Shown one piece after another: positions 17,549-20,797 of a stretch of 32,956 nt of DNA. This DNA comes from Gemmatimonadota bacterium. Its GTDB lineage: Bacteria; GCA-2686955. The notes under the pieces are model-generated. The model saw only the letters and a program-made list of their open reading frames with translations, ran no database searches and was not told the DNA's origin. The stretch lies in NCBI GenBank assembly GCA_002686955.1, contig NYZA01000093.1, positions 1-32,956 of the forward strand. Direction: 5' to 3'. How positions within the stretch are numbered: the stretch's first letter is position 1; the number at the start of each line of letters is the position of its first letter. A program made the position numbers and the translations under genes.

Positions 17549-18919
17549 TCAGCCCTCTGATCGGAGTCGACCGAGCACCACGAGTCCCCACTGGGCCAGG
17601 ATCCAGAGCAAGGCCAGGGCGAGGCCGAATCCGCTCAGCAGGACGATCGGTGGGAAGACGGCGATCAAGGTGGAGAAATCGGGCGAGGAAGGGCCCGTAT
17701 AGCGACTCCAGCCGGCGGCCAGCCCACGGAGGAAAAAGGCCAGCCAGAATACGAAGAGGAAGAGGTTCACGACTGGAACCAGAACGCGGACACGCGCACC
17801 CGAAACCACGGGATGATCCACGCCGACCCAGGTCCGAATCACGAACGACAGGGCGGCCATCAGGATCATGGTGTCGATCCCGACCATGGTGCCCATCGAA
17901 TGCGATACCACCACGTGAGTGCCGTGGATCATGGCATTCAATGGTGGAATCGAGATGAGGAGCGCCAGAATCAGCATCAGCCCGGTCCAGTACGTGGCCG
18001 AGCGCATGAAGGAATCGGTGACGCGCAGATCGTCGGTCTGAACTTGAACGTTGCGCAGGTCGAGCAGGTCGATGAAGACCTTTGCCAGGATGATGGCCTC
18101 CAACATGCTCACGCTGAAGCTGATCCAGTGGAGCCACGGTGTCTGCGGGAGGTGGTAGGTGTGATGCCCGTAGTTGGTGAAGGTGTTGAGCACACCGATG
18201 CAGAAGAGCGCGAAGGCCGTGCGCGAATGGGCATAAGCGTCATCACCTCGAATCATGCCCGCCACGTACATGAGGGATCCGTAGACCAGTAGGTTGAACG
18301 AACCCACGAGGACGCCATTGGACTTCCACTGAATCGCGATGTCGCGAATCGGTCTGCCGCTCACATGATCCAACAGGTAGAGATGACCTTCGATGTATGT
18401 GATCACGAAGAGGGGGATGGCCACCGTCCACATGTAGAGATACACGGGGCGACCCTTGAGCCGGGTTCCGAGCAGGTCGAAGAAATTCCAGGCGAATACG
18501 AGCCATCCGAGCAGAATCAACAGCGAGAAGAGCGGCTGATAGCCCAGGTATTCGCGGCCGGAGAAGGAGCCATCCAATAACGTGATCAGAATGCTCAGGC
18601 CGGCGACGACCCAGAGCAGGAGTTGGACGACCATCCTGCGCTGGGTGGCCCTACCCAGGGGACCATGCGCATTGTGAAGGTAGAAGTACACGATCGCTGT
18701 TCCGCCGAGAAAGGCCCAGGCAAAGGCAAAGGTCTCGTGTACGGGTCGAATATGCTGGAGCGTGATCCCCACCGATCGAAGGAGAGGCTCATAGCTGCTA
18801 TAGACGATCGACGCAGCCATCCCGCTCACGAGCGTGACCGCGCAGGCGCAGAGTGACAGGAGGACGAGGATCAGGTGGGGCTTCGTGGGGCGCAAGGTAC
18901 GGTCCGAATCCTCACTCAT
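17549..18919 (-). CDS. NorB-like heme-copper superfamily membrane subunit with altered ligands
   Basis: The protein is 456 aa with about 12 membrane helices. ATG 18919 is chosen because it overlaps the cytochrome stop as ATGA. I compared it with NorB from memory. His61 (RPVHETF) matches the low-spin heme ligand. Y-I-E177-G matches the HLWVEG helix, but the His there is Ile173. GHH (252-253) matches the FeB/CuB histidines, Glu274 (SMLEA) matches the conserved helix glutamate, and HGTHVVVSHSM (332-342) matches HGTQLTAAHGH. His340 is thus the likely high-spin heme ligand, while the second axial ligand of the low-spin heme would be Met342 instead of His. Such proteins are often labelled cbb3-type oxidase subunit I, but the partner subunit points to the NO-reductase branch. 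Activity (NO or O2 reduction) is not proven. Confidence 0.8.
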   Translation of the reverse strand: MSEDSDRTLRPTKPHLILVLLSLCACAVTLVSGMAASIVYSSYEPLLRSVGITLQHIRPVHETFAFAWAFLGGTAIVYFYLHNAHGPLGRATQRRMVVQLLLWVVAGLSILITLLDGSFSGREYLGYQPLFSLLILLGWLVFAWNFFDLLGTRLKGRPVYLYMWTVAIPLFVITYIEGHLYLLDHVSGRPIRDIAIQWKSNGVLVGSFNLLVYGSLMYVAGMIRGDDAYAHSRTAFALFCIGVLNTFTNYGHHTYHLPQTPWLHWISFSVSMLEAIILAKVFIDLLDLRNVQVQTDDLRVTDSFMRSATYWTGLMLILALLISIPPLNAMIHGTHVVVSHSMGTMVGIDTMILMAALSFVIRTWVGVDHPVVSGARVRVLVPVVNLFLFVFWLAFFLRGLAAGWSRYTGPSSPDFSTLIAVFPPIVLLSGFGLALALLWILAQWGLVVLGRLRSEG

Positions 18920-19734
18920 TGATACTCGAACCAAGGTATGGCGCTCCAGGATATGTTCTCTCGCCCCACCAAGCGGTCGTTGAGCTCGATCAGCTCACTC
19001 CGATGCTCCGATGCCCAACTCAAATAGCCACTGAGATCCTCCACATCTTCATCCTCCATGGGAAAGGCCGGCATGAGGCCGCGTCCCTCTCGAAGCAGCG
19101 TCCATAGCGACGGAATCGAGCGGTCGAGGGCAGCGGCGGACAGATCGGCGGCTCGATGCCGTCCTTCGGTGAAGGGTACGTGGCAGGCGCCGCAACGGTT
19201 TCTCGTCAAGACATCGAGACCCCGTTCCACGGCAGCGGGCAGGGCCTCGCTCTCTTCCCTCACCCACATCTCCGCGATCAGCCTGCTGTGCTCCCACGAG
19301 TCCACCGCGCGTCGGGCGCCCAGACGGGGCGGGAGAGAGGTTCCGGTGCGGTTCATGGCCCGCAAGAAGGCCAGGACGGCTGCCTGATCGGCATCCGAGA
19401 GCTTCAGGGCGGGCATTCGCCCGAGGCCTTTGAACAGGATCCACTGGTAGGCATCGTCCGGTGTGTCATCGGAAACCCGGTTGGTCAGATCCGGCCCCAG
19501 GAAGCCGCCGAACCCGTGGAGTTGATGACAGGCTTGGCAGTTCCTGGCCCTCCAGACCCCGAGGCCCTCCCACTCCAGCGCGCTCAGAGGGGAATTCTCG
19601 GGTTCTCTGGGATAGTCGGTGTAGACGACGATCGAGACGGATAGATAGATCAACAAGAGCAGGCCGAGGGCAGCCTCTCGCCGGACGCTACCGACTTGAG
19701 CGCGCGCGCGCGCATCCTGTTCGCGGCTTTCCAT
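18916..19734 (-). CDS. NorC-like membrane-anchored di-heme cytochrome c
   Basis: The protein is 272 aa from ATG 19734. It has an N-terminal membrane anchor (residues about 23-38) and two periplasmic c-type domains: CQACH (66-70) with likely Met107 (GRMPA), and CGACH (181-185) with likely Met221 (GLMPAFP). The first domain, CQACHQLHGFGGFLGPDLTN, matches the NorC pattern CxxCHxxxGxGxxxxPxLTN. NorC itself has one heme, so this looks like NorC with a second cytochrome domain added at the C-terminus. It would pass electrons to the NorB-like subunit, with which it is co-translated by an ATGA overlap (18919-18916). A (CG)n run at 19701-19713 encodes an Ala-Arg repeat near the N-terminus. Confidence 0.85.
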   Translation of the reverse strand: MESREQDARARAQVGSVRREAALGLLLLIYLSVSIVVYTDYPREPENSPLSALEWEGLGVWRARNCQACHQLHGFGGFLGPDLTNRVSDDTPDDAYQWILFKGLGRMPALKLSDADQAAVLAFLRAMNRTGTSLPPRLGARRAVDSWEHSRLIAEMWVREESEALPAAVERGLDVLTRNRCGACHVPFTEGRHRAADLSAAALDRSIPSLWTLLREGRGLMPAFPMEDEDVEDLSGYLSWASEHRSELIELNDRLVGRENISWSAIPWFEYQ

Positions 19735-19830: not shown

Positions 19831-20009
19831 AGGGTCGGCGAAGAAGCAACTCCCGTGTTTGCATCCCATCTGCACCGCACCTCCGGCCGATCGGGGCGAC
19901 CAGAATCCTCGAAACAGGCCTGCTATTCCTCCGGTTTCGGGCGCCTCGATCGACCGGATCTACGGCACATCTGGGCGCAAACCGAGGGAGTCGTTTCTTC
20001 GCCGACCCT
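19831..20009. repeat. Long imperfect inverted repeat, about 180 nt, single giant hairpin
   Basis: The left arm 19831-19901 and right arm 19939-20009 are reverse complements at about 54 of 72 hand-aligned columns. The outermost 15 bp are perfect (AGGGTCGGCGAAGAA at 19831-19845; its complement at 19995-20009). An inner stem CGAAAC (19910-19915) / GTTTCG (19934-19939) continues it towards the loop. Many mismatches are transitions that can still pair as G-U in RNA. It begins two nt after the kinase stop codon and ends about 97 nt before the cytochrome start. I see no target-site duplication. It could be a MITE- or REP-like element, a terminator, or a structured RNA. Confidence 0.75.
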
Positions 20010-20011
20010 CA

Positions 20012-20686
20012 CTACTCCGAAGGAAGCTCCAAGCTGAAGCAGGCACCGCGCACGGAACGTAGAAGCTCCAGCCGGCCCCGCATCGCTCCGAGTGCCCGGC
20101 GGGCGAGCGCCAGGCCCAGGCCCGCCCCATGATGCTCGCGGTCGATCCTCTCGTCGCCTTGGCGGAAGTCGTCGAAGATGAGCTCGGCGAGATCGGTGGG
20201 AACGCCGGGGCCTTCGTCCTGAACCGCCAGCGCGACTCCACCGGCGGTGGACCGCTCCGCTCGCAGCCAGATCGTTCCCCGGCCCGCGAACTTGATGGCG
20301 TTCTCGAGGATGCAGCGCAGGGAGAGCTGCAGGAGCTCCGCATCGGCCTCGATGCGTGGAGGGCAGTCGGGTGCCTTGCCCACGACTAGGCGCAGCCCCG
20401 CTCGGTCGATCATCTCGCGATGCGTTTGGTCGGCCGCCTCGAGCACTTCGTCCACGCTCAGCGAGTGGACATCGGTCACGATCTCGCCGCCGGTCAGACG
20501 TGCCAGTTTGAGGATGTCCTCGATCAATCGCAGCAGATTTGTCCCGTTCGTCCGAATCCTCTGTGCATAACCGGCCTCGTCCTCCGCCTGTCCTTCCATC
20601 ATCTCGGAAAGACCGATGATGGTGGTCAGCGGAGTACGAAGCTCGTGACTGAGACGCATCAGGAGTTCGGAAGATGTAGGCAACAT
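20012..20686 (-). CDS. Short soluble histidine kinase lacking a sensor domain
   Basis: The protein is 224 aa from ATG 20686 (GTG 20707 would add 7 residues; neither has a clear ribosome site). The H-box SHELRTPLTTIIG comes almost at once (His about residue 15), followed by the N-box ENAIKFA, G1 DEGPGVP, FDDF and G2 GAGLGLALA. All the catalytic ATP-binding boxes are therefore present, but there is no room for a sensor, HAMP or membrane segment: the divergent sulfatase-like gene starts about 110 nt upstream. No response regulator is adjacent. It may rely on a partner protein for input or be the remnant of a longer kinase. Confidence 0.85.
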   Translation of the reverse strand: MLPTSSELLMRLSHELRTPLTTIIGLSEMMEGQAEDEAGYAQRIRTNGTNLLRLIEDILKLARLTGGEIVTDVHSLSVDEVLEAADQTHREMIDRAGLRLVVGKAPDCPPRIEADAELLQLSLRCILENAIKFAGRGTIWLRAERSTAGGVALAVQDEGPGVPTDLAELIFDDFRQGDERIDREHHGAGLGLALARRALGAMRGRLELLRSVRGACFSLELPSE

Positions 20687-20797
20687 GAGCGTTCGATCCG
20701 ATCGCACGGAGGCTGCTCATACCATCGGTGCGCGGGGGTCCCGGCTTGACCGGAAGGAGCTCTCCCGCCACGGGTTCTGATAGGGTGGACGGTCACG

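Follow-up and report, generated by a model that had tools for sequence, protein, structure and literature searches.

A two-gene unit encoding a NorB-like subunit of the heme-copper oxidase (HCO) family and a NorC-like membrane cytochrome c lies on the minus strand of the window, the 32,956-nucleotide stretch of Gemmatimonadota DNA analysed here. The NorB-like subunit belongs to a widespread and apparently uncharacterised family of Planctomycetota, Gemmatimonadota and Bacteroidota. Four of the six histidines of the HCO sextet are kept; in all covered members, the helix VI histidine is gone, and the second heme b histidine is replaced by methionine. Judged from sequence, there is about an even chance that the pair is an enzyme that takes electrons from cytochrome c to act on NO, most likely as a reductase, with a His/Met heme b of high potential and a distal site that departs from the canonical one. 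To our knowledge, the characterised NO and O2 reductases of the superfamily are all thought to need a second metal beside the high-spin heme. A conserved family that keeps its electron donors and NO-linked genes after the loss of part of the metal site would hence test how much of this site NO chemistry needs.

The open reading frame proved to be real, and E177, H252-H253 and SHSM (H340-x-M342) lie where a preliminary description of this DNA had placed them. As in that description, residues of the NorB-like subunit are numbered from the ATG at 18919. The features of the pair are as follows:

17549..18919, minus strand: NorB-like subunit of the heme-copper oxidase family, 456 aa; its ATG overlaps the partner's stop, and the longest start is a TTG at 18934.
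18916..19734, minus strand: NorC-like membrane cytochrome c with two CxxCH motifs; probable ATG at 19734, longest start a GTG at 19875.
19525..19539, minus strand: first heme c motif CQACH in a NorC-like context, NCQACHQLHGFGGFLGPDL (sequence and PDB match to NorC).
19180..19194, minus strand: second heme c motif CGACH, which canonical NorC does not have (sequence).
18737..18739, minus strand: H61 of the RPVH motif, first axial His of heme b (His in 80/80 of the family).
18389..18391, minus strand: E177 at the end of helix V, with no homologue in cNOR or cbb3 (invariant in the family; modelled helix 159-177).
18302..18331, minus strand: Q197-G206, QWKSNGVLVG of helix VI, with K199 near-invariant (alignments and profile-only matches).
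18293..18295, minus strand: N209, invariant and aligned with the second helix VI Glu of cNOR (VWEL) (family alignment, hhalign and profile matches).
18161..18166, minus strand: H252-H253, the kept HH pair ending helix VII (82/82; modelled helix 233-253).
17900..17902, minus strand: H340, axial His of heme b3 (82/82).
17894..17896, minus strand: M342 at the second axial position of heme b, a His in cNOR, cbb3 and A-type oxidases (82/82 and independent profile matches).

The first domain of the NorC-like partner matches NorC of Pseudomonas aeruginosa in a PDB search (3o0r_C, E=3.6e-8). A NorC-like gene also stands upstream in most family loci; it carries two hemes in the resolved relatives from Planctomycetota and Gemmatimonadota and one in Bacteroidota. 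The other genes of the window are mainly for polysaccharide biosynthesis, and the window genome, at 84.5% completeness, encodes a single A-type oxidase and gave no matches to NirK, cNOR/qNOR or NosZ. Therefore, the function in the window organism has to be read from its relatives. Also on the minus strand, 278 bases upstream of the likely ATG of the norC-like gene, lies a short histidine kinase gene (HisKA and HATPase domains; 20012-20707).

Standard models recognise the NorB-like subunit poorly. It reached 53.8 bits with the Pfam COX1 model, which is over the cut-off, and no NCBIfam model gave it a name; the one relative scored with the ccoN model obtained 34 bits against a cut-off of 583. 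With such weak matches, the protein is easily taken for cbb3. The proposal of the preliminary description that it represents a NOR-like branch that has received little study, with changes at the metal site and a Met as heme b axial residue, was supported. A single-sequence phmmer search against the PDB returned no match, and the family profile alone reached cNOR and cbb3. The AF2 model (pLDDT 91.5, pTM 0.92) has the 12-helix fold of subunit I and superposes on cbb3 and cNOR with TM scores of about 0.8 at 13-16% identity (Foldseek). In a 53-row tree, the family forms one clade (SH-aLRT 100) that is separate from the cNOR/qNOR/Nod clade and also from that of cbb3, with the deeper order and the sister group left open by long branches. 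The family is hence monophyletic and heme-copper-oxidase-like.

The family was sampled by a pattern scan of the genome collection, driven by a two-row seed alignment of the window protein and a relative from another genome. The scan yielded 80 loci in Planctomycetota, Gemmatimonadota, Bacteroidota and one assembly labelled Competibacteraceae. The member in this last assembly (L069, G423) has a Bacteroidota-like neighbourhood and was probably mis-binned or transferred. For the alignment, 82 members were combined with canonical cNOR, canonical cbb3 and the A-type oxidase of the window genome. H252, H253, H340 and M342 were each found in 82/82 members and H61 in 80/80, while H335 is not invariant. 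The GHH pair, reported as kept in the preliminary description, is thus kept throughout the family, and so is the heme b3 His. The claim of a Met in place of the second heme b His was likewise borne out. M342 aligns with the cNOR His by the HMMER profile against PDB chains, by hhalign (cNOR and cbb3) and by MAFFT, and Met is invariant in the family where every canonical sequence has this His.

Because the initial scan relied on peptide patterns, the invariance was re-tested by profile searches, which are independent of such patterns, in 297 genomes of Bacteroidota and 294 of Planctomycetota. Strong matches (>200 bits) numbered 24; four of them are loci already in the set, and about 20 are independent of the seed patterns. 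Wherever covered, E177, the HH pair, N209, E274, H340 and M342 are kept in the 24 matches, and K199 is kept with the exception of one Arg. The weaker matches inspected (about 110 bits or less) all proved to be canonical HCOs, in which the helix VI and heme b positions have their His, and a clear score gap separates the family from these enzymes with all six histidines. Members occur in about 20 of the 294 Planctomycetota and about 5 of the 297 Bacteroidota genomes sampled; no plasmid-borne relatives of the family were found. Since the substitutions are conserved across the family, including the 24 matches found without the seed patterns, the departure from the canonical ligands is more than chance. 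An artefact, a pseudogene or a local misassembly has a negligible probability: nothing speaks for it beyond the unusual residues themselves, whereas the reading frame and its overlapping partner are intact, and identical substitutions recur in about 100 sequences from independent assemblies. The conservation across phyla refutes an artefact or a decaying gene.

The histidine sextet, with two ligands for heme b, one for heme b3 and three for the metal, has been called a signature of HCOs (PMC3413370). The preliminary description had located the HLWVEG helix of NorB around E177, with Ile at the His position and the Glu kept. The loss of the helix VI His stood, but the stretch itself is the end of helix V, and the homologous Glu is gone as well. 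In the AF2 model, helix V spans residues 159-177, helix VI 190-224 and helix VII 233-253. FVITYIEG, which contains E177, is hence the last turn of helix V, and the identification of E177 with the NorB glutamate was rejected. The true counterpart of the NorB motif WWTxHLWVEG, and of QWWYGHN in cbb3, is IQWKSNGVLVG in helix VI (QWKSNGVLVG being residues 197-206). In the alignment, the helix VI His of cNOR corresponds to N201 (Y, C, N, A, S or T in relatives), the His of cbb3 and A-type oxidases to G202, and the catalytic Glu of cNOR to V205. Three independent alignments (MAFFT, the HMMER profile against PDB chains, and hhalign) concur on the helix VI register. Between the cNOR and cbb3 registers, the helix VI His shifts by one residue, so that its exact column is uncertain to this extent; covered members have no His at either. 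Moreover, no covered family member has a His aligned with the third metal ligand or with the heme b axial ligand; such a His would have contradicted the altered-ligand claim.

The preliminary description had also predicted a metal site of two His plus Glu. Homology does not support such a site, as the counterpart of the NorB Glu is V205 and not E177. E177 is nonetheless invariant (82/82) despite this lack of homology. Furthermore, it ends helix V as the HH pair ends helix VII, and in the model the two may lie at matching membrane depth. A His2Glu NO reductase, in which H252, H253 and Glu177 would bind a functional FeB or another metal, is therefore conceivable but unlikely.

FeB and its His and Glu ligands are considered essential in characterised NORs, so the loss of one His and the Glu could abolish NO reduction. 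The protein may be a pseudo-enzyme for NO binding, NO sensing or electron transfer, in which hemes b and b3 were kept and catalysis was lost with the metal site, perhaps helping Nod or NosZ. This explanation is possible, with a probability of around one in four by our judgement. It draws on the disappearance of the two helix VI residues, His and Glu, from which the FeB site is built, and on the frequent co-occurrence and adjacency of other NO-consuming enzymes. The importance of FeB insertion in cNOR points the same way (PMC9976466). However, the HH pair, the b3 His, E177, K199, N209, E274 and the cytochrome c donor are strictly kept across three phyla, and a simple sensor would hardly need these.

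In the preferred reading, an enzyme acting on NO, a periplasmic cytochrome c would pass electrons to the heme or hemes c of the NorC-like subunit and from there to the low-spin heme b, predicted to be bound by H61 and M342. The potential of such a His/Met heme is expected to lie above that of a bis-His heme. Heme b would then reduce heme b3 (H340), the site at which NO would bind and, most probably, be converted to N2O by reduction. On the other side of heme b3, the HH pair would be what is left of the usual non-heme metal site with its three His. A third ligand or a proton donor, if any, would come from elsewhere; failing that, the enzyme would work with no canonical FeB. E177, K199 and N209 are the first candidates for such a ligand or donor because they vary little or not at all within the family and are peculiar to it. 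A more far-reaching proposal is put forward tentatively, with the balance of probability against it: NO may be converted at heme b3 without the canonical three-His non-heme metal, perhaps by means of the invariant Lys199/Glu177 or a two-His metal, with the high-potential His/Met heme b feeding the reaction. The family could then represent a so far overlooked NO reductase of Planctomycetota, Gemmatimonadota and Bacteroidota, or else act as a partner of NO dismutase (Nod).

Among solved structures, the cNORs are closest in sequence profile. The family profile ranks cNOR 4xyd first among PDB chains (1.7e-24), followed by cbb3 (2.5e-19). With cNOR (NorB/NorC; 3o0r, 4xyd), the family shares the two-gene pair, the NorC-like cytochrome c, the HCO fold, the HH pair, the heme b3 His, the HGT motif and the helix VIII Glu (E274). 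In contrast to cNOR, where three His and a helix VI Glu bind FeB, it has N201/G202 and V205 at these helix VI positions, and Met replaces the heme b His. It also differs in its separate clade, its 14-15% identity to the solved structures and, in the window, a di-heme partner. With the cbb3 subunit CcoN (3mk7), it shares the fold (TM 0.82-0.84), the QW motif of helix VI and the HH pair. Unlike in CcoN, a Gly (G202) stands at the position of the CuB His, so the three-His CuB site is missing, and Met again occupies the heme b His position. No neighbours of the CcoO/CcoP type were seen at family loci.

An enzyme reacting with O2, i.e., a cytochrome c oxidase or a peroxidase-like enzyme that might clear O2 from Nod, was also considered and is judged quite improbable. 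The Foldseek order, with cbb3 slightly above cNOR, and the Nod-like genes that adjoin in some Bacteroidota would fit it. Yet the family lacks a helix VI His that could bind CuB, no residue corresponding to the oxidase tyrosine was identified, and Nod is absent from most loci; the sequence profile is nearest to cNOR, with which E274 and HGT are held in common.

Nod resembles the family in its HCO fold, the loss of one metal-ligand His and the NO context, and in Bacteroidota it is often encoded by the neighbouring gene. It is, however, qNOR-like and keeps the helix VI His, while the second His of the HH pair is changed to Asn (SHNFYW) and the Glu to Gln. Moreover, Nod has no cytochrome c partner. 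The family keeps HH in 82/82 members, and the window protein, at 456 aa and with a separate cytochrome c, does without the qNOR-like N-terminal domain of Nod. The eNOR, sNOR, gNOR, bNOR and nNOR groups are similar to the family as non-canonical NOR-type HCOs with changed active sites. Descriptions of eNOR, sNOR and gNOR set them apart by a subunit II of the cupredoxin type and an altered residue (Q/N/D) close to the active site (PMC8756737). Membership in bNOR, eNOR, sNOR or gNOR is hence unlikely, as the partner of the family is a NorC-like cytochrome c. No description of an HCO family with a His/Met heme b and without the helix VI His was found in the mostly open literature covered, and a prior description is possible.

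The gene neighbourhoods in Bacteroidota include NO-related genes. Rrf2 regulators occur at 36 loci, 6-PTPS/QueD-like genes at 29, DGC-domain genes at 16, RIC/YtfE iron-sulfur repair genes at 15 (the one tested is over the TIGR03652 cut-off) and CRP/FNR regulators at 10; truncated haemoglobin, NirK and NarG/NarK genes were also seen. FNR boxes upstream of 61 Bacteroidota norC-like genes were not enriched compared to shuffles. In three Planctomycetota loci, nar genes lie 7-10 kb away. Near the family, no convincing NorQ-like MoxR genes were found, and the short cNOR control loci were likewise without any.

A qNOR-like, Nod-like gene is present in 17/63 Bacteroidota loci, some of them near-identical, so that independent cases are fewer than 17. 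It is immediately adjacent and divergent in 12 loci, separated by a fatty-acid hydroxylase gene in 2 and 6-9 kb off in 3. Bacteroidota matches of 776-825 aa were first read as qNOR, until the motifs showed six of them to be Nod-like. The full-length copies have SHNFYW for HH, and those inspected have FSTLQ for FSALE; His-to-Asn and Glu-to-Gln are the changes known from NO dismutase (PMC3413370). Such genes were located at L053 (7151-9502, minus strand), L056, L058, L072, L083, L100 and others, most of them adjacent to and divergent from the norCB-like pair, and they form part of a conserved block that also holds genes for DGC-domain, thioesterase, U32 peptidase, QueD-like and Rrf2 proteins. 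This adjacency offers a concrete handle on dark-oxygen pathways in Bacteroidota.

Similar associations appear at the genome level, in tests that ignore phylogeny and in which the Bacteroidota carriers are biased to a few orders. NosZ is encoded in 28/34 Bacteroidota carriers versus 99/296 random Bacteroidota (33%; p 6e-8), and Nod in 7/34 carrier genomes versus 3/297 (p 6e-6). In Bacteroidota, the enzyme would probably remove NO and supply N2O to NosZ, repeatedly paired with a Nod-like gene. NirK exceeds the cut-off in 13/52 carriers. Canonical cNOR is present in six carriers and qNOR in several Planctomycetota, and many carriers also have cNOR, qNOR, Nod or other putative NOR-type HCOs. Given the co-occurrence of cNOR and qNOR, the family is not simply replacing NOR.

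Denitrifier genomes with nir and nosZ and without nor have been reported (Gemmatimonadota 13%, Bacteroidota 9%) in a survey that left out sequences without the conserved ligand residues (PMC12569097). Because of this exclusion, the family may account for some of the genomes scored in this way. In three Gemmatimonadota carriers (G391, G392, G403), the remaining HCOs are A-type oxidases only, and the NirK matches are below the curated cut-off. The notion that NirK-positive carriers without cNOR or qNOR lack any NOR holds for these three only. It was dropped for G425, G428, G434 and G437, which encode further, eNOR/sNOR-like HCOs in which the helix VI His is followed, four residues on, by Gln or Asn.

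Several further HCOs were noted in these and other genomes. L167 (G425) and L170 (G428) encode a paralogue of about 560 aa with GHSSQQ in helix VI (Gln four after His) and GHFK, i.e., a Lys at the usual second heme b His. An sNOR/bNOR-like HCO at L177 (G434) has QH for the HH metal pair, with an Asn-type helix VI in its relatives L175 and L176. At L112 (G405), a 642 aa NOR-like protein with HYWVEA in helix VI and a C-terminal extension forms a long branch near qNOR/Nod. Finally, a stand-alone cbb3-like subunit I of 465 aa is encoded at L005 (G349; 1504-2901), directly downstream of a multi-heme cytochrome c gene at 3-1499, and L141, L201 and L206 in other genomes are similar to it.
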